Positions 2,653 to 13,779 of a stretch of 21,705 bases of DNA are shown here, in pieces. Within the stretch, counting starts at the first letter, position 1, and each line of letters begins with the position of its first letter. The DNA comes from a virus. The notes beneath the pieces are model-generated. The model was not told the origin of the DNA. It did no database searches and saw only the letters and a program-made list of their open reading frames with translations. The translations under genes were made by a program, and so were the position numbers. The DNA lies in the IMG/VR virus record IMGVR_UViG_3300023172_000223, positions 1 to 21,705 of that record; one strand, written 5' to 3'.

Positions 2653-3086
2653 TAAATACCTAATTCTTTTTCAGTAAAGATTTTAAATTCTAAACCATTA
2701 TCATTACAATAGACATCAGCGGCTTGCCATTTAGCCACATTTTTGATATACTCTAAACTCTCCCTCATAAATGCCTTTGATTTTTTTAGTTTGGGTGTAG
2801 GTTTTTTAGTTTGTGCTGATGGTTTTATCTCTATCATATAACGCTTGCCTTTTTTGGTTTTTATGATAAAGTCAGGATAGTAACGGTGAACTTTACGATC
2901 AAGTGGATTAACATATGGTATAGCTAATTCTTCACTTGCCCAATATATAATATCCTCATTTTTATCACAATAGACCATAAACTTACGCTCCCAATTTGAA
3001 CGATAGACTATTCTTGTATGGTCGCCAGCGTATTTGCTAGGGTTGGTGGGTCTGTAAATACCCTTATATGTTGCTCTCTTTTTCAT
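2649..3086 (-). CDS. 4: head completion protein gp4, TnsA/PD-(D/E)XK nuclease fold, 145 aa
   Basis: From the ATG at 3086 the protein carries the full gp4 pattern: YRSNWERKFMVYCDKN (residues 28-43), SEELAIPYVNPLD (51-63), HRYYPDF (67-73) and IEIKPSAQ (85-92). E33, D72 and E86-x-K88 are placed like the active-site residues of TnsA-like PD-(D/E)XK nucleases. T4 gp4 (about 150 aa) is needed to finish filled heads and is thought to process DNA ends before tail joining. A TTG 18 bases upstream keeps the frame open but ATG with the standard N-terminus is preferred. The gene is inverted relative to all surrounding tail genes and meets the tape-measure-like gene tail to tail with overlapping stops. 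In T4, gene 4 sits next to gene 53 on the same strand; here it is one gene away and flipped. Confidence 0.9.
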   Translation of the reverse strand: MKKRATYKGIYRPTNPSKYAGDHTRIVYRSNWERKFMVYCDKNEDIIYWASEELAIPYVNPLDRKVHRYYPDFIIKTKKGKRYMIEIKPSAQTKKPTPKLKKSKAFMRESLEYIKNVAKWQAADVYCNDNGLEFKIFTEKELGIY

Positions 3087-3094
3087 TATAAATA
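3087..3094 (+). promoter_or_regulatory. T4-type late promoter box
   Basis: TATAAATA matches the T4 late -10 element exactly and lies 20 bases before the ATG of the tail-tube cap/initiator gene. It starts one base after the gp4 start codon of the opposite strand, so the two start regions overlap. Confidence 0.7.
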
Positions 3095-3108
3095 TTACTA
3101 ACAAAGGT

Positions 3109-3116
3109 TATTTATG
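3109..3116 (-). promoter_or_regulatory. 4: possible late promoter for gp4 on the minus strand
   Basis: Read on the minus strand this is CATAAATA, one base off the T4 late box, 22 bases before the gp4 ATG (3086). It overlaps the start codon of the plus-strand gene at 3114. Single match with one mismatch, so only suggestive. Confidence 0.35.
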
Positions 3117-4259
3117 GCGAACATACCACTACAACAATTTAGAGCTAATAGATTATTAAATTCTAAATCTAATAATTCTACAGGTAAATTTGTTGATTCT
3201 ATTACAAATACATCAGCAACAGAAATTACAGATTCAATACAAGAATCAATGAAAAAAGATCCATTGAAATTTGCTGGATTAAGATATCCATTAGATATTG
3301 GTAGTGAGGGTTTAGGTCACTATGTTATATTTTATTGTATATCAAATAATTTTGGTAGTGGTACTTCTAGTGACAAAGTAATGGCGGCTAGAGTGGGTTT
3401 GGCAAAACCAATTATTGGTCGTGGAGGAGGCGGTAGAGATACAGGTGATCCAGAAATAAAAGATTTAAGGGTTAATCAACAAGGTGTAAATCCAGGATCT
3501 CTAAAATCAAACAATAGTGTAATATCAAAATTTCCAACACATAGCGTATCAACAGGTGCTATCGCATTGTATTTACCTCCAGGAGTTAAAGTTAGTTATG
3601 GAATGACATATGATACAGAACCTACAGACTTATCAGGACAATTATTAGGAACTATAGGTGAAGCTAAAAACGCTACAGGCGCTTTTGAAAAATTTAAAAC
3701 ATTAGCTGGTGGTGCTGTAGGTGGTGCGGCTACTGAATTGGGTAAAGCAGTTGGTGATTTATTTGGTAATGCTTCAATAGGTGATCCTGTAAAATTAGGT
3801 TCAAAGGCATTAGGTATTGCTATTAACCCACACGAAGAACAATTTTTTAATAAACCAAATTTTAGATCATTTAATTATACATTTACATTTTTCCCTAAAA
3901 GTGAAGATGAAATGGAAATGGTACATAACATTATATGGTTATTTAAATATCATATGCATCCAGGCTATGACGCTTCATCTGTAGGTGGAAGAGTTTTTAA
4001 AGTGCCTTCAGAATTTGAAATATTTTATTATTACAAAAATAATATAAACGATTTTTTAAATAAAATTACAAGAAGTGTATTAGAAACTATGGACGTAACA
4101 TATGGACCTGAAGGTAAGTTTAGCTCGTTTAATGAATACATTATGAATACAGGTTTAGGAGAAACTATAAAGGGTGCTCCGCCTGTACAGACAAATTTAA
4201 CTTTAGCGTTTAAAGAAACTACATTTATTACTAAATCAGATATTGAAAGAGGTCACTAA
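3114..4259 (+). CDS. baseplate tail-tube cap/initiator protein (gp48/gp54 family), 381 aa
   Basis: The C-terminal third has the features of the T4 gp48/gp54 tube-foundation family: RSFNYTFTFFPKSEDEME, a helix with FKYHMHPGYD, then FKVPSEFEIFYYY, and a late segment around TMDVTYGPEGKFSSF. In T4 these proteins sit on the hub and start polymerisation of the tail tube. The middle (about residues 195-215) is Gly/Ala-rich. Sequence alone does not let me choose between gp48 and gp54; only one such gene is in the window. A late promoter box lies 20 bases upstream, and the stop overlaps the start of gene 53 (TAATG), giving coupled translation. Confidence 0.8.
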   Translation: MANIPLQQFRANRLLNSKSNNSTGKFVDSITNTSATEITDSIQESMKKDPLKFAGLRYPLDIGSEGLGHYVIFYCISNNFGSGTSSDKVMAARVGLAKPIIGRGGGGRDTGDPEIKDLRVNQQGVNPGSLKSNNSVISKFPTHSVSTGAIALYLPPGVKVSYGMTYDTEPTDLSGQLLGTIGEAKNATGAFEKFKTLAGGAVGGAATELGKAVGDLFGNASIGDPVKLGSKALGIAINPHEEQFFNKPNFRSFNYTFTFFPKSEDEMEMVHNIIWLFKYHMHPGYDASSVGGRVFKVPSEFEIFYYYKNNINDFLNKITRSVLETMDVTYGPEGKFSSFNEYIMNTGLGETIKGAPPVQTNLTLAFKETTFITKSDIERGH

Positions 4260-8314: not shown

Positions 8315-9601
8315 ATGGCGTCAATCGTAGAAAATAAAAAGTATGGTGAAAACCATAGAGTTATATTAAAAGATAAGCCTGTAAATAGTGCCTTGTTTAA
8401 AAAAGAGGGTTATGTGCCAGGTAAATCTGTGTTTTTAATTATACGTAGAAAAGTTAAGGCCAATAAGTTTATAGAATTGGCCAAAGGCAATAAATCCATT
8501 GTACTTAAAGATAGTAAAAATAAGATTGTGTTAATTGAAGGATCTGAAAGTTCTATTAACGGTTCATTTAATCACTATACGGCCAACGCCAAATCAAAAA
8601 CCAATGTATTGACTGAAATAAAAGAATTAGTATCAATGCATCTATTTGAAAGTTATATTGAAACAGGCCGTACTTTAAAAGAGGAACAAGTTAAATCAAT
8701 GGTGGGAAAAATTAAAGGTGTGTATGAAACATTGTTTGATAGTTTTTATTATGAAAGTGCTTTAAAGCAATTAAATGAATTAAAAAAGTATAAACTAAAA
8801 AAAGGTTATCATTACGAAAGACAAAAAGGTCCAATGACCAATGAGTTATATAAACTAGCTCGTGGGTTAACGGGTAAATTAGATGATAACTGGAATCCAG
8901 GTGATGTATGGATGATACGTAAAAATTATAATATGAAACCTTTATTAAATTCTAAATCGGCCAATGAGTTAAATGGTGAATTAACAAAGGCCTTTAAAAA
9001 AAGAGATGTTATTCCTATTTCACTTAAACAAGTAGAAAAGCCAAGAGCAACTTCTTCTATTATTGACCCGAGTAAATTAATGACACAAAAGTTAGATTTA
9101 GATTTAAAGTTTGATAGAGTGGATTTATCAGAAAGTTTTAATAATTTTATTGTTATAACTAAATCTGGTTTTGCTGTTCGTGTGGGTTTTAAGGCAAGTG
9201 CTACTACATTAAACGTTTCATTAGAAGGCCGTTTTATTGGTGCTGGTTTTCAAACAGGCGCCGTTGATGCTAAGGCTTATACAAAATATGTAGATGAAGA
9301 ATATAATTACAAATTAAGAGGTGGTGGTGTAAATCAATCAAGTTATAGTGTAGCACAAAGAGAATTAAAAGAAATGTTTAGTAAGTATAAACGATTGTCA
9401 AATACAATTGAAAACTATGATGAGGCCATACGATTGTTTAAAAGAGGTGACAAACTAGTACAAGATAGATTTGCCAACTTAATGAGTTATATGTATTCTT
9501 TTTTAATGAAACCAAAGTCTTTTGAAAATCATATGAAGTTTAATTACTTTACATCCAAAAAACTTACAACGGATAGTAGTATTTACCTTATCATACAATA
9601 G
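8315..9601 (+). CDS. unknown 428-aa phage protein with NPGDVW and PISLK motifs
   Basis: I do not recognise the family with confidence. The protein is basic and mixed alpha/beta. Residues 96-165 look helical (LTEIKELVSMHLFESYIE). Residues 184-199 contain GLTGKLDDNWNPGDVW, and residues 231-238 DVIPISLK. An acidic residue after a Pro-Gly (D197) followed about 40 residues later by a strand ending in S-L-K resembles the layout of divergent PD-(D/E)XK nuclease-fold proteins, where the usual E-x-K is replaced; this is my inference only. The C-terminal half has a beta-rich segment (FIVITKSGFAVRVGFKASAT) and helical ends. A late promoter directly upstream suggests late expression, compatible with a structural or packaging role. 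Confidence 0.6.
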   Translation: MASIVENKKYGENHRVILKDKPVNSALFKKEGYVPGKSVFLIIRRKVKANKFIELAKGNKSIVLKDSKNKIVLIEGSESSINGSFNHYTANAKSKTNVLTEIKELVSMHLFESYIETGRTLKEEQVKSMVGKIKGVYETLFDSFYYESALKQLNELKKYKLKKGYHYERQKGPMTNELYKLARGLTGKLDDNWNPGDVWMIRKNYNMKPLLNSKSANELNGELTKAFKKRDVIPISLKQVEKPRATSSIIDPSKLMTQKLDLDLKFDRVDLSESFNNFIVITKSGFAVRVGFKASATTLNVSLEGRFIGAGFQTGAVDAKAYTKYVDEEYNYKLRGGGVNQSSYSVAQRELKEMFSKYKRLSNTIENYDEAIRLFKRGDKLVQDRFANLMSYMYSFLMKPKSFENHMKFNYFTSKKLTTDSSIYLIIQ

Positions 9602-9649
9602 TATTAAACTTTTGTTACAATCACTTTTCTAGTTCTAAATATTTTTTAG

Positions 9650-10129
9650 ATGAGGTCTTCATTTAAAAAACTAATCAAAAAGGTCAAAGAAATGGAATTA
9701 GGGAATCCTATAATCACTACCCTTGTAGGTCTAGTGGTATTTTATATTGGTTTGAAAATGTTTTCAGGTGGAATGAAATCAATGGGTAATTTAGATCACT
9801 TATCTTATTTTACACACAATACAGTTTATATGTTTTTTGGTGGTATCATTATGACATTACTTTGGCAATCATCATCACTATCAACGACAGCAATCATAGC
9901 TCTTGTTGCCTCTGGTGCCGTTCCATTACCAGCGGCCATAGCCGCCGTATTAGGGGCAAACATAGGTACAACAGGTACAATATGGATTGCTGGATTTTTA
10001 GTATCTGATGGAATACCACAAGGAATTACAAGACATATCGCTTTAGCACATACTGGTGTAAATTTGATAATGGCGTTTACATTACTTCCATTTGTCAAAC
10101 AAATCGCAAACTTCTTATCAAAATTTTAA
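9650..10129 (+). CDS. half-size Na+/phosphate cotransporter-like membrane protein, 159 aa
   Basis: The protein contains one full unit of the Na/Pi-cotransporter family (NptA / Na_Pi_cotrans): a first membrane helix near residues 21-40 ending in FYIGLKMFSGGMKSM, LLWQSSSLSTTAIIALVASG (71-90) with the family QSSS motif (73-76), LGANIGTTGT (101-110), and RHIALAHTGVNLI (128-140). Family members normally have two such inverted repeats, often with a PhoU-like tail, and 300-550 residues; here there is only one repeat. It might work as a dimer that rebuilds the two-repeat transporter, or modulate the host system. The first 15 residues are basic. No consensus late box precedes it; TCTAAATA (9634-9641) is a weak candidate. 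The glutamine-riboswitch unit begins three bases after its stop. Confidence 0.85.
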   Translation: MRSSFKKLIKKVKEMELGNPIITTLVGLVVFYIGLKMFSGGMKSMGNLDHLSYFTHNTVYMFFGGIIMTLLWQSSSLSTTAIIALVASGAVPLPAAIAAVLGANIGTTGTIWIAGFLVSDGIPQGITRHIALAHTGVNLIMAFTLLPFVKQIANFLSKF

Positions 10130-10131
10130 CA

Positions 10132-10160
10132 TTGACATTTATACAGATATGTGTTATATT
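10132..10160 (+). promoter_or_regulatory. sigma70-type promoter (early/host type)
   Basis: TTGACA (10132-10137) and TATATT (10155-10160) are separated by exactly 17 bases, giving a near-consensus host-type promoter. Predicted transcription start is about 10167, so the transcript carries the riboswitch and the 64-residue gene. The left arm of an inverted repeat fills most of the spacer. Confidence 0.8.
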
Positions 10161-10190
10161 CATAGTTGATATGTTTTAGACACATATCTG
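10144..10190. repeat. 11-bp perfect inverted repeat around the promoter -10 (operator-like)
   Basis: CAGATATGTGT at 10144-10154 (inside the -35/-10 spacer) and its exact reverse complement ACACATATCTG at 10180-10190. Similarity continues outward: each arm is followed, on its own strand, by TATAAATG (left, minus strand) or, after one extra A, TATAAATA (right, plus strand). As the left arm lies upstream of the predicted start, it is not a hairpin of that transcript; a DNA-binding site for a regulator is the simpler reading. Confidence 0.6.
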
Positions 10191-10191
10191 A

Positions 10192-10199
10192 TATAAATA
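10192..10199 (+). promoter_or_regulatory. T4-type late promoter box before the riboswitch
   Basis: Exact TATAAATA. A late start about 5-7 bases downstream would fall at about 10205, just before the first base of riboswitch stem P1 (10208). The unit may therefore be transcribed both early (sigma70-type) and late. Confidence 0.55.
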
Positions 10200-10204
10200 A
10201 TAAT

Positions 10205-10255
10205 ACACGTTCAGCCATATGGCCGGAAGTAGGCAAATGCCGAAGGAACGCACCT
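10205..10255 (+). promoter_or_regulatory. glutamine riboswitch (glnA / Downstream-peptide RNA type)
   Basis: The conserved core of glutamine-binding RNAs is present in order: CGTTCA (10208-10213), CGGAAGTAGG (10224-10233) and CCGAAGGAACGC (10240-10251). The three-way junction can be drawn: P1 CGTTC 10208-10212 with GAACG 10246-10250; P2 GCC 10214-10216 with GGC 10221-10223; P3 GGC 10232-10234 with GCC 10239-10241. Glutamine riboswitches of this class occur in cyanobacteria and marine metagenomes, the Downstream-peptide form before short open reading frames, as here. A possible expression platform is pairing of GCACC (10250-10254) with GGTGT (10271-10275), which would enclose the Shine-Dalgarno sequence AAGGAG in a loop; that part is inference. 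Confidence 0.88.
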
Positions 10256-10276
10256 AACTTTAAAAAGGAGGGTGTT

Positions 10277-10471
10277 ATGGAAAGACATACAAGATTACTT
10301 ACAGGTTATAGTAAGTCTAAAGAGCTTGAGAAAAAAACAAAAGCTTTGTTTAGTGCCAGAAAAGAAGTTGACATCAATGCTGGTGGAACATCTGGTTACA
10401 TTGTTAAACACGGACCAAACAAAGATAAAGTCTTAGCTCACACAAAAGTTAAATCCACAAATAATTGGTAA
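10277..10471 (+). CDS. 64-aa peptide controlled by the glutamine riboswitch, unknown function
   Basis: The ATG at 10277 is chosen because AAGGAGGG lies 6-12 bases upstream, by far the best Shine-Dalgarno sequence on this strand, and because an in-frame upstream extension would run through promoter and riboswitch. The product is small and basic, starts MERHTRLLTGYSKSKELEK, has a charged helical N-terminal half, a GGTSGYIVKHGPNKDK turn-rich middle and ends in Trp. No Cys, signal peptide or membrane segment. Small peptides behind Downstream-peptide riboswitches are a known arrangement, and in cyanobacteria a glutamine riboswitch controls a glutamine synthetase inactivating factor. By analogy it could act on host nitrogen metabolism, but I see no sequence similarity that shows it. 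Confidence 0.8.
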   Translation: MERHTRLLTGYSKSKELEKKTKALFSARKEVDINAGGTSGYIVKHGPNKDKVLAHTKVKSTNNW

Positions 10472-10474
10472 GTG

Positions 10475-10482
10475 TATAAATA
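10475..10482 (+). promoter_or_regulatory. possible late promoter box facing into the hairpins and antisense to tRNA-His
   Basis: Exact TATAAATA three bases after the stop of the 64-residue gene. No plus-strand gene follows for 2 kb; the first products would be the two hairpins and then RNA antisense to the tRNA and minus-strand operon. Could be chance in AT-rich DNA. Confidence 0.4.
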
Positions 10483-10497
10483 ACTATACCACACCAC

Positions 10498-10553
10498 GAG
10501 AGAGCGTAGCTCTCTCATAGAGAGGTGCTTACCTCCACACACAAGCACCTCTC
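10498..10553. terminator. two strong hairpins between convergent transcription units
   Basis: Hairpin 1: GAGAGAGC 10498-10505 with GCTCTCTC 10509-10516, loop GTA. Hairpin 2: GAGAGGTGCTT 10520-10530 with AAGCACCTCTC 10543-10553, 12-base loop; 11 perfect pairs. They lie where the plus-strand 64-residue gene and the minus-strand tRNA operon meet, so a two-way terminator or 3'-end stabiliser is likely. Neither is followed by a clear T-run on either strand, so classical intrinsic termination is not supported; a structured small RNA is the alternative. Confidence 0.5.
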
Positions 10554-10579
10554 ACTTTAACAATCAACAACAAAGAAAC

Positions 10580-10656
10580 TGGTACAGACGGATTGAATCG
10601 AACAATCAACCTCTGGTTCCACAAACCAGCGCTCTAACCAATTGAGCTACGTCTGC
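10580..10656 (-). tRNA. tRNA-His (GTG) with encoded CCA
   Basis: Read on the minus strand: acceptor GCAGACG (10656-10650) pairs with CGTCTGT (10590-10584); D-arm with AGCTCAATTGGTTAGAGC; anticodon arm CTGGT-TTGTGGA-ACCAG with GTG at 10622-10620; T-arm GATTG-TTCGATT-CAATC; discriminator A (10583); CCA encoded (10582-10580). The acceptor has G1:U72 and A73, and the base before position 1 is A, so the usual encoded G-1 of bacterial tRNA-His is absent. This combination is known from a subset of alphaproteobacteria such as Caulobacter. The 5' end directly follows the stop codon of the upstream minus-strand gene, so the tRNA is presumably cut from the operon transcript by RNase P. Confidence 0.93.
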
Positions 10657-10896
10657 TTAAAAGAAATACGTGTAAACTAATCCTATAATAGTTACACTAG
10701 CTAAAACAACATTAGTTGTAATTAAGGCGGCTTCTTTCCACATAACTGAAACAGCCAACCATACAAAGCCACCTAATAAATTCATTAAAGGTCCATATGG
10801 ATAGATATTAAGTGAATTAAGAGCGGCGCCGATAATTAATAGGCCTGTCGCTATCCATTTTAAATAATAATCTATTTTATATTTTTTTGTATTCAA
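10657..10896 (-). CDS. small three-helix membrane protein, 79 aa
   Basis: Three hydrophobic stretches are visible: about residues 13-32 (LKWIATGLLIIGAALNSLNI), 34-52 (YGPLMNLLGGFVWLAVSVM) and 56-78 (ALITTNVVLASVTIIGLVYT). The N-terminus is basic. Three helices in about 80 residues recall SemiSWEET-type half transporters, but I see no PQ motif and make no family call. The only in-frame start before the first helix is TTG at 10896, which overlaps the end of the preceding gene by 20 bases; this start is uncertain. The stop codon (10657-10659) directly touches the tRNA-His 5' end. Last protein gene of the minus-strand operon. Confidence 0.65.
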   Translation of the reverse strand: MNTKKYKIDYYLKWIATGLLIIGAALNSLNIYPYGPLMNLLGGFVWLAVSVMWKEAALITTNVVLASVTIIGLVYTYFF

Positions 10897-11047
10897 AGTG
10901 TATCCAACTTTCTGTTTTCTCTTTTGAGTTTGTATATATTTTCATACCTGGTCCGTATTCATTATTACAGGCAAAGATGGCGGCATCCCAATCATTATCA
11001 AACTCTTTTAAAATCTTGCCGTCTTTTGTAACTTGATATTTTATCAT
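10877..11047 (-). CDS. small protein, 56 aa, unknown function
   Basis: The ATG at 11047 overlaps the TGA of the preceding gene (ATGA), a standard coupling arrangement, and the frame stays open to TAA 10877-10879. The product starts MIKYQVTKDGKILKEFDNDW, continues with DAAIFACNNEYGPG and KTESWIHFEYKKI. It is small, soluble and beta-prone with one Cys and three Trp/Tyr-rich patches. No family recognised. The tight overlap upstream and the 20-base overlap downstream support it as a real operon member despite its size. Confidence 0.6.
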   Translation of the reverse strand: MIKYQVTKDGKILKEFDNDWDAAIFACNNEYGPGMKIYTNSKEKTESWIHFEYKKI

Positions 11048-11316
11048 CTGTAATAAATGGCAAAAGTATCAGCATAGGCCATATGAACATAATCCCTTGG
11101 CCGTCTATAACCTGGTTTTGAATTGCCTCTATATCTTATTCTTAAAGGTTTTACTTTTTTAGAAAACTCTTTAAACAAAGGCAGATACTTCATTGGTATG
11201 CCTTTGGCTATTCCTTTCTCTAAAGGGTGGCCTTTATATTTTTTAGCAATACTATTACTAACCTTTTTTAGTTTTTGGTAATAATCAGTATTCATAACTT
11301 TATCAGCGTACAACAT
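11044..11316 (-). CDS. basic protein of unknown function, 90 aa
   Basis: The start ATG overlaps the stop of the preceding gene (TAATG at 11316) and the stop overlaps the next start (ATGA), so it lies inside a compact operon. The product is very basic: SNSIAKKYKGHPLEKGIAKG, FSKKVKPLRIRYRGNSKPGY and RRPRDYVHMAYADTFAIYY. The C-terminal stretch with many Arg/Tyr residues could bind nucleic acid, but no domain is recognised. N-terminal residues 1-30 are likely helical. Function unknown. Confidence 0.65.
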   Translation of the reverse strand: MLYADKVMNTDYYQKLKKVSNSIAKKYKGHPLEKGIAKGIPMKYLPLFKEFSKKVKPLRIRYRGNSKPGYRRPRDYVHMAYADTFAIYYR

Positions 11317-13305: not shown

Positions 13306-13508
13306 TGTTAACAGGTGAGTTTGTCATAAGAAGAAATGGCAAATTAGAGAAATATAATAAGTTTAATGATATACCAAGTAGTTTTGAACACGTAATATCA
13401 TTTAAACCTGATTATCCACCTGAACCACATACCGAAGAACAACATAATCAAATGTCAAAGTTTGATGATTATTTAAAGGAGTTAATGACACGTGCCAGCG
13501 GTAACTAG
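13305..13508 (+). CDS. small conserved-looking protein before the PAAR gene, 67 aa
   Basis: MLTGEFVIRRNGKLEKYNKF is followed by DIPSSFEHVISFKPDYPPEP and a helix HTEEQHNQMSKFDDYLKELM. It looks like a short beta hairpin plus C-terminal helix. Start overlaps the previous stop (TAATG) and the last 17 bases overlap the PAAR gene. Small proteins of this kind regularly accompany PAAR genes in T4-like marine phages; a function is unknown. Confidence 0.65.
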   Translation: MLTGEFVIRRNGKLEKYNKFNDIPSSFEHVISFKPDYPPEPHTEEQHNQMSKFDDYLKELMTRASGN

Positions 13509-13779
13509 AATAGGTGATGCAGATGTGGCTCATTGTTCAGGAATGACAAGAGCTGAAGGATCTCCAAACGTAAGAGTAAATAGTATTCCTGTTTCACGTC
13601 AAGGTGATAATAACACATCACATTTATTACCAGCAGCTGTGTGCCCACCTCATACAGCACCTATTGCTGTAGGTTCAACTACTGTTTTTATCAACGGTAA
13701 AGGTTGTGGAAGAGTTGGTGACGCTATATCTGGTTGTACTAGTGTGGCTGAAGGTTCTTCAAATGTTTTCGCTGGATAG
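13492..13779 (+). CDS. PAAR-repeat spike-tip protein (T4 gp5.4-like), 95 aa
   Basis: The start is GTG at 13492, supported by AAGGAG at 13476-13481; it overlaps the preceding gene by 17 bases. The sequence is a complete PAAR domain: MPAVTRIGDADVAHCSGMTR, SPNVRVNSIPVSRQGDNNTSH, CPPHTAPIAVGSTTVFINGK and GCGRVGDAISGCTSVAEGSS. H14, C15, H44, C51, H54 and C72 are candidate metal ligands. PAAR proteins form the sharpened, metal-stabilised tip on the gp5 needle and pierce the outer membrane. The length matches T4 gp5.4 (97 aa). The gene is about 6 kb away from its gp5 partner, separated by the accessory island. Confidence 0.92.
   Translation: MPAVTRIGDADVAHCSGMTRAEGSPNVRVNSIPVSRQGDNNTSHLLPAAVCPPHTAPIAVGSTTVFINGKGCGRVGDAISGCTSVAEGSSNVFAG

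Follow-up and report, generated by a model that had tools for sequence, protein, structure and literature searches.

A type 1 glutamine riboswitch lies directly upstream of a 64-codon gene in the baseplate region of a T4-like phage genome, and we consider it fairly probable that the two form a glutamine-sensing translational ON switch in a pelagimyophage, with the peptide adjusting host nitrogen assimilation. The window analyzed here is the whole of a 21,705-nt stretch (positions 1 to 21,705 of IMG/VR record IMGVR_UViG_3300023172_000223), and coordinates refer to it unless another record is named. Briefly, RNA polymerase starting from a late-type promoter, and perhaps also from a sigma-70-type promoter further upstream, would produce a leader RNA that folds into the type 1 glutamine aptamer. 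In the absence of glutamine, C60 of the aptamer and the next four bases would pair with the Shine-Dalgarno region and damp translation of the 64-codon gene; with glutamine, G23 would draw C60 into the aptamer, weakening this hiding helix so that the peptide is made. The peptide is the phage counterpart of a family of small SAR11 proteins, another subtype of which lies next to glnA, and may adjust host nitrogen assimilation, possibly via glutamine synthetase, when glutamine is plentiful.

Aptamer, gene and putative promoters in the phage genome

Comparison of the whole window with Rfam (cmscan) returned two matches: RF01739 (glutamine riboswitch, type 1) at 10206-10254 on the + strand, and a tRNA at 10583-10656 on the - strand, called tRNA-His by ARAGORN. 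The RF01739 match scores 58.7 bits against a gathering cut-off of 35 (E 7.4e-11) and covers all model positions 1-53; a lax Rfam search of 10100-10500 found it again (E 1.4e-12), alongside six further matches, each at E ≥0.9 and well under its own cut-off. The initial annotation had read a glutamine riboswitch core with a three-way junction from the letters and had named both the glnA and the Downstream-peptide models for an Infernal check. The glnA model (RF01739) bears out that reading at full length; the Downstream-peptide class is ruled out for this aptamer, as RF01704 gave no hit within 10100-10500 even with E allowed up to 10. All three helices were located from the sequence and the model alignment: P1 at 10208-10212/10246-10250, P2 at 10214-10216/10221-10223 and P3 at 10232-10234/10239-10241. 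Furthermore, comparison with the crystallised sequence (given in the available text of PMC5393176) finds the ligand-site and linchpin bases all present, with G22 at G10225, G23 (which pairs with C60 when ligand is bound) at G10226 and C60 at C10251. RF01739 exceeds its cut-off in one of 14 well-known control genomes, that of a cyanobacterium, which together with the co-recurrence of aptamer and peptide in 18 of 20 scanned IMG/VR loci places the match beyond chance.

The gene that follows (10277-10471, +) comprises 64 codons plus a stop, its ATG lying 22 nt past the end of the aptamer match and its Shine-Dalgarno GGAGGG at 10267-10272, as the initial annotation had proposed. The T4-like baseplate setting it described also held up, with window proteins matching T4-type gp6, gp8, gp9/10 and gp5 (PF21379, PF09215, PF07880, phrog_430). 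The gp6 protein shares 68.7% identity with that of Pelagibacter phage Mosig, 56.1% with that of HTVC008M and 54.1% with that of Methylophilales phage Melnitz, and megablast against GenBank phages matched 2% of the window to one record, Mosig. By these sequence comparisons, the phage is T4-like and pelagimyophage-like, closest to the SAR11 phages Mosig and HTVC008M, which makes SAR11 the likely host. An alphaproteobacterial host, as first suggested, thus agrees with the gp6 kinship; because the Melnitz phages, which infect OM43, are close as well, the host assignment stays an indirect one. Directly upstream of the cassette (9650-10129, +) lies a gene for a 159-aa Na/Pi-cotransporter-like protein (PF02690, E 8.5e-16), possibly a phosphate-uptake auxiliary gene, and the 95-aa protein encoded at 13492-13779 (+) looks by eye like a PAAR-type spike tip.

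A motif scan places a T4-late-promoter-like TATAAATA at 10192-10199 (+), 8 nt before P1, so that the transcript would start close to the aptamer; from T4 late-promoter geometry we take the start to be ~10205, at the aptamer itself. This spacing recurs: 75 of 125 aptamers, or 50 of 90 when each 18-mer is counted once, carry TAAATA in the 18 nt that precede P1, compared with 1.0% of random 18-mers, and the gap to P1 is 6-9 nt in 68 of those 75. The aptamer sets behind these counts and the linker counts below draw partly on the listed matches of a larger IMG/VR core scan (at least 119 stretches). Within the window there are eight TATAAATA sites, all on the + strand, a total that is not unusual (15 of 100 shuffles reach it); an ORF start follows within 30 nt at five of them besides the 10192 site (3087, 8284, 13782, 18693 and 19912).

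Further upstream, a sigma-70-like sequence, TTGACA-17-TATATT with a TG before the -10 element (10132-10160, +; 11/12 match), may act as an early promoter, and its first base is the position at which the initial annotation began its feature. Such sites are about as frequent in the region as chance would give (6 found, 6.3 expected); a similar TTGACA...TATATT was seen by eye in 9 of 19 aligned rows, the window and its near-copies among them. Early transcription is possible given this recurrence, and a purely late expression of the cassette was dropped on the same ground. A dyad read from the sequence, CAGATATGTGT (10144-10154) and ACACATATCTG (10180-10190), spans 10144-10190 (+) and overlaps the sigma-70-like promoter; lying upstream of the late-type promoter, it could be an operator or a hairpin, and similar sequence is seen by eye in related loci.

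Just past the gene, at 10475-10565 (+), folding, alignment and a pattern scan point to a small-RNA candidate with its own TATAAATA and two hairpins (-31 kcal/mol). The second loop carries ACCUCC, in four of five aligned loci; the stems vary and the loop, which holds CCUCCACA, is kept. We take this CCUCCACA-containing loop to resemble the anti-Shine-Dalgarno of 16S rRNA. The pattern occurs in 13 IMG/VR stretches, with the peptide family just upstream in seven, and the whole-window Rfam search gave no family at 10475-10565.

Recurrence of the cassette and covariation of the hiding helix

With the window peptide as query, 44 IMG/VR loci were found, and RF01739 exceeds its cut-off directly upstream of the peptide in 18 of the 20 loci scanned; in the other two (L041 and L044), the peptide match starts at no ATG. 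A search of 22 whole records likewise placed RF01739 over its cut-off in 12 of 15 IMG/VR contigs and in Mosig, and in none of the six podo- or siphophage records carrying the peptide. Two of the three contig misses start inside the peptide gene, and the third contig carries L007, one of the 18 loci above, whose aptamer is interrupted (39.6 bits over 154 nt, and a sub-cut-off 18.1 bits in the whole-record search). An interrupted aptamer is what one would see if these RNAs were relics whose sequence persists through recent descent after sensing has been lost. We regard this as very improbable, since many phages preserve the core, C60 and the hiding helix despite wide sequence variation in P2 and the loops.

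To place the cassette in a wider setting, we assembled 126 loci, consisting of the 44 peptide loci, 80 loci among the matches listed from an aptamer-core pattern scan of IMG/VR (at least 119 stretches), Melnitz and Mosig; some contigs appear twice (for example, L006/L104 and L012/L117). These loci hold 129 cores, and behind 108 of them, no more than 45 nt away, come a Shine-Dalgarno sequence and an ATG that opens an ORF of 26-81 aa; all but one of these ORFs (107) are at most 65 aa, and they encode 85 different proteins. As a baseline, 44% of 1097 simple ORF calls in the same loci are equally short. The other 21 cores comprise, on our own reading, ten first members of tandem aptamers, four at contig ends, five before very short ORFs, one whose gene starts with GTG and one (L089) that is probably a chance match. 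By eye, the target proteins fall into several families: that of the window, proteins starting MTYRPF, proteins starting MTLWxxYCR, the Mosig type, MTKYQ...NPFYP, MKTKNNWQL and YRGV-repeat proteins, two of the last matching DUF4278 below its cut-off. Tandem glutamine aptamers occur in phage contigs L078, L114, L121, L140 and L148, where they precede a single short gene in four of the five; L121 stops at the contig edge.

Against GenBank phages, blastn with the leader hit nine records; the four Melnitz genomes among them are the sole meaningful matches. The Melnitz aptamer (3004-3052, +, in MZ577097) begins after both Rfam tmRNA matches have ended (at 2951 and 2996), although ARAGORN extends the tmRNA to 3042, into the aptamer. 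Behind it is an unannotated 32-aa ORF with a Shine-Dalgarno sequence (3075-3173, +), which shares part of its length with an annotated 33-aa CDS of the - strand, and the style of the encoded protein resembles other riboswitch peptides. In Mosig, the aptamer is followed by the 51-aa gene Mosig_00116, and the tmRNA is ~19 kb away. Riboswitch control of ssrA is accordingly a misfit for Mosig and doubtful for Melnitz.

The nature of the expression platform was approached through C60, which forms with G23 the linchpin pair of the glutamine-bound crystal (PMC11477058) and is the base immediately 3' of P1, as placed from the published construct sequence (PMC5393176). From linker comparison and folding, an anti-Shine-Dalgarno arm CACCU begins at C60 itself (10251-10255, +) and would pair with a GGGUG arm at 10270-10274, which shares 10267-10274 (+) with the Shine-Dalgarno sequence; the helix would thus overlap and hide the ribosome site of the 64-codon gene. 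The two arms covary across phages. An exact 4-bp partner for C60-63 near the start codon (G-U allowed) is present in 53 of 71 unique linkers compared with 13.1 expected from shuffled ends, a count to be read with the caveat that related linkers are not independent trials, and is lacking in the remaining 18. The pair types include CACC:GGTG (30 linkers), CACT:AGTG (6), CATC:GGTG (6), CATC:GATG (5), CAAT:ATTG (1) and CGCT:GGCG (1). With one linker taken per distinct first four letters (12 types), arms pair at -4.15 kcal/mol with their own partners and at -3.05 kcal/mol with swapped ones, and the median number of shuffles that do as well is 0 of 500 (largest shuffle fraction over 200 picks, 0.012). 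Arms offset by 4 or 8 nt gave no pairing signal in the same comparison.

Folding does not reproduce a full release: the energy model favours the hidden state (-22.1 kcal/mol), and when the aptamer is imposed and C60 blocked, a 4-bp hairpin still lies over the Shine-Dalgarno sequence (-18.9 kcal/mol). The anti-Shine-Dalgarno helix of this platform thus covaries across phages, yet release by folding is incomplete and would need ligand energy or kinetics. That energy modelling alone shows no freeing of the Shine-Dalgarno sequence by the aptamer would suit a switch in which the same aptamer responds to glutamine by repressing, or acts on transcription termination. We hold such a switch to be improbable: the covarying helix covers the ribosome site, the sole terminator-like site within 9600-11100 is on the opposite strand, and the cyanobacterial type 1 and type 2 relatives activate on glutamine (PMC6316151, in its available text). 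A translational glutamine-ON switch fits these observations, its ON direction being taken by analogy from those cyanobacterial switches; ligand binding and the degree of switching are inferred too.

A peptide family shared with SAR11

By profile, the window peptide belongs to phrog_32989 (E 2e-12). Pfam gave no family for it at E 0.1 and none for two relatives at E 1, DUF4278 (PF14105) being unmatched at these same thresholds; NCBIfam recognised no family for the peptide, and the one match among PDB sequences (E 0.59) is not significant. An AlphaFold2 model (pLDDT 68) shows an N-terminal helix and three strands, and Foldseek found no resembling solved structure (best E 2.1). Among GenBank phages, tblastn at E up to 1 recovered 20 Pelagibacter phage records and one uncultured phage, nine of these 21 at E ≤0.01. 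Genome contigs carrying the family belong to SAR11, apart from three contigs from other bins that are phage-like or short. A profile search found it in 132 of 197 SAR11-order genomes, in one copy each except for one genome with two, so the family is not confined to phages. A tree of 56 sequences, built on few columns, with a long-branch warning and no settled inner order, splits it in two with support 100/99. Subtype i holds the glnA-side copies together with podo- and siphophage copies; subtype ii holds myophage copies, host copies located elsewhere and L188, and includes the window peptide.

Neighbourhoods were inspected at 77 loci (the 30 best-scoring, 40 down the ranking and 7 earlier ones, with two places doubled, L193/L200 and L194/L201). 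In 54 of these, the gene lies convergent, tail-to-tail, with GlnA, the matched stretches being 7-36 nt apart; NCBIfam confirmed two of these GlnA proteins as type I (TIGR00653; 649 and 651.5 bits), the others being named by tblastn. The other 23 showed no GlnA in the stretch examined, a few of them on truncated contigs, and at 21 of these, from subtype ii hosts, the neighbours are varied and no nitrogen theme was seen. Adjacency to glnA for the window's own subtype, entertained for a time, is ruled out by this wider sample and the tree. When 97 SAR11-order genomes were divided by the score of their copy against a subtype ii profile (≥77 vs ≤51 bits), subtype i was present in 32, with GlnA adjacent in all 17 inspected for neighbourhood. 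PII was found in none of these 32 compared with 42 of the other 65 (7 of 15 with subtype ii and 35 of 50 with neither), hence in 42 of 97 overall, and GlnE in 0 of 97, the same search finding GlnE in 3 of 14 controls. This distribution is a pattern rather than proof, as the genomes share ancestry and may be incomplete.

Whether the glnA neighbourhood says anything about function is a close call. It could well be mere synteny of streamlined genomes, with the PII pattern a matter of lineage, a view we rate slightly below an even chance: the SAR11 genomes share descent, the gene faces glnA tail-to-tail and is not co-transcribed with it, and subtype ii sits elsewhere. Set against this, the adjacency persists across family copies from 102 down to 50 bits, and PII is missing from every subtype i genome while present in most others.

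The riboswitch also reaches host chromosomes. Under stricter filters that lose weak matches, RF01739 exceeds its cut-off in two of 197 SAR11-order genomes (G054 and G178), in each directly before a subtype ii gene and with the same CACCTAACTT...GGAGGGTG linker. The surrounding genes are not phage-like by eye, and the G178 cassette lies on a 1.28-Mb contig; capture between phage and host could have run in either direction. Among the seven SAR11 genomes searched first, each of which has the glnA-side gene, no RF01739 match passed the cut-off; one of the seven has two sub-threshold matches (18.1 and 15.5 bits). Across a class sample of 385 alphaproteobacterial genomes, five exceed the cut-off. 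One (G377) carries eight RF01739 aptamers in four tandem pairs, which precede two genes that by eye are Amt-like, one that is GlnA-like and a further large ORF; in the other four (G456, G536, G225 and G358), a single aptamer has no ORF behind it by a simple rule.

The initial annotation had offered the peptide as a possible modulator of nitrogen metabolism and suggested a search for relatives, including GS inactivating factors. That search yielded phrog_32989 and the SAR11 homologues beside glnA, and, given no Pfam match at E 0.1, the peptide is not a recognised GS inactivating factor; the broader idea gains from those homologues and from the two SAR11-order chromosomal cassettes. A role in host nitrogen assimilation is therefore plausible, judged by the riboswitch ligand, the glnA-side sister subtype and the host cassettes, and an effect of the family on glutamine synthetase is conjecture drawn from the genomic association of that sister subtype. 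Weighing against our main explanation, the window peptide is of the subtype not beside glnA, whose host neighbours are unremarkable, six podo- or siphophages carry the peptide with no RF01739, and the peptide resembles no solved structure. Moreover, HTVC027P carries a family member, and its infection raises host glnA, gltB, gltD and amt transcripts (PMC12753301, in the part available), which is not obviously the behaviour of a glutamine synthetase brake, transcript level not being activity.

The switch might instead work as proposed while the peptide serves the phage itself, in late expression, packaging or lysis timing, glutamine merely reporting the stage or state of infection. The late-type promoter at the aptamers would suit this, as would the podo- and siphophage copies at most 1.5 kb upstream of DNA maturase genes in three of six regions and the speculation on lysis timing made for Melnitz (PMC9004378, available text). 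We consider a purely phage-internal job unlikely, if a serious contender, because the family occurs in about two-thirds of SAR11-order genomes, one subtype lies beside glnA at every inspected site, and the riboswitch cassette is found on two host chromosomes. Adjustment of host nitrogen assimilation thus remains the reading we prefer. A bolder version is doubtful and is offered tentatively: SAR11, with no GlnE found and PII absent alongside the glnA-side subtype, would control glutamine synthetase by its own tiny protein family; of the pelagiphages, which hold members of both subtypes, the myophages would use the glutamine riboswitch to have host nitrogen economy reset by glutamine level during infection.

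Relation to known glutamine-responsive systems

A 2018 review describes glutamine riboswitches as restricted to cyanobacteria (PMC6316151). They were already known from marine metagenomes (PMC2864571), have been described in cyanophages (PMC9602691, PMC9964418) and, in pelagimyophage-type genomes, in Melnitz and Mosig (PMC9004378); an earlier pelagimyophage survey with Riboswitch Scanner reports none in its available text (PMC7029224), the other sources likewise being cited for the portions available. A glutamine riboswitch in such a phage is therefore not new as such, Melnitz and Mosig being published. What is new is the nature of the targets, tiny proteins of several families, among them that of the window, which also occurs in SAR11. 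A literature search made largely outside subscription papers found no report of peptide families as targets, of the SAR11 glnA-side family, of the covarying C60 helix or of SAR11 chromosomal glutamine riboswitches. Taken together, aptamer, ribosome-site-hiding helix and tiny protein make up a recurring marine-phage cassette, and glutamine riboswitches also occur on a few alphaproteobacterial chromosomes. The protein family is a concrete candidate for regulation of nitrogen assimilation in SAR11, a dominant ocean heterotroph in whose order GlnE gave no hits and PII is patchy, and for viral interference with it; the relatives beside the glutamine synthetase gene hint that viruses tune host nitrogen handling.

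The closest cyanobacterial parallel is the gifB leader of Synechocystis (type 1, RF01739), with which the window shares the aptamer class, the conserved core, a short protein gene downstream and the logic of a small protein made at high glutamine (PMC6316151). It differs in belonging to a phage with a probably non-cyanobacterial host, in a target without DUF4278, a domain associated with glutamine riboswitches in cyanobacteria (PMC6316151), and in a 5' end adjacent to a T4-late-type promoter. Downstream-peptide (type 2, RF01704) RNAs similarly precede genes for proteins of 17-100 aa (PMC2864571), whereas the window lacks a match to that model and its peptide is not DUF4278 by Pfam. IF7, IF17 and DUF4278 proteins resemble the peptide in being small and linked to nitrogen, IF17 and DUF4278 proteins also being under glutamine-riboswitch control (PMC6316151), and have no sequence relation to it by Pfam, the level at which they were compared. 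The Melnitz and Mosig riboswitches are of the same RNA family and phage group (PMC9004378); the Melnitz riboswitch was read there as controlling ssrA/tmRNA, whereas here the 32-aa ORF lies behind the Melnitz aptamer and Mosig_00116 behind that of Mosig, which suggests that a riboswitch-controlled 32-aa protein may be the better reading of the Melnitz case. Finally, the window peptide is itself a member of phrog_32989, a family for which the links to SAR11 and to the riboswitch are new here.
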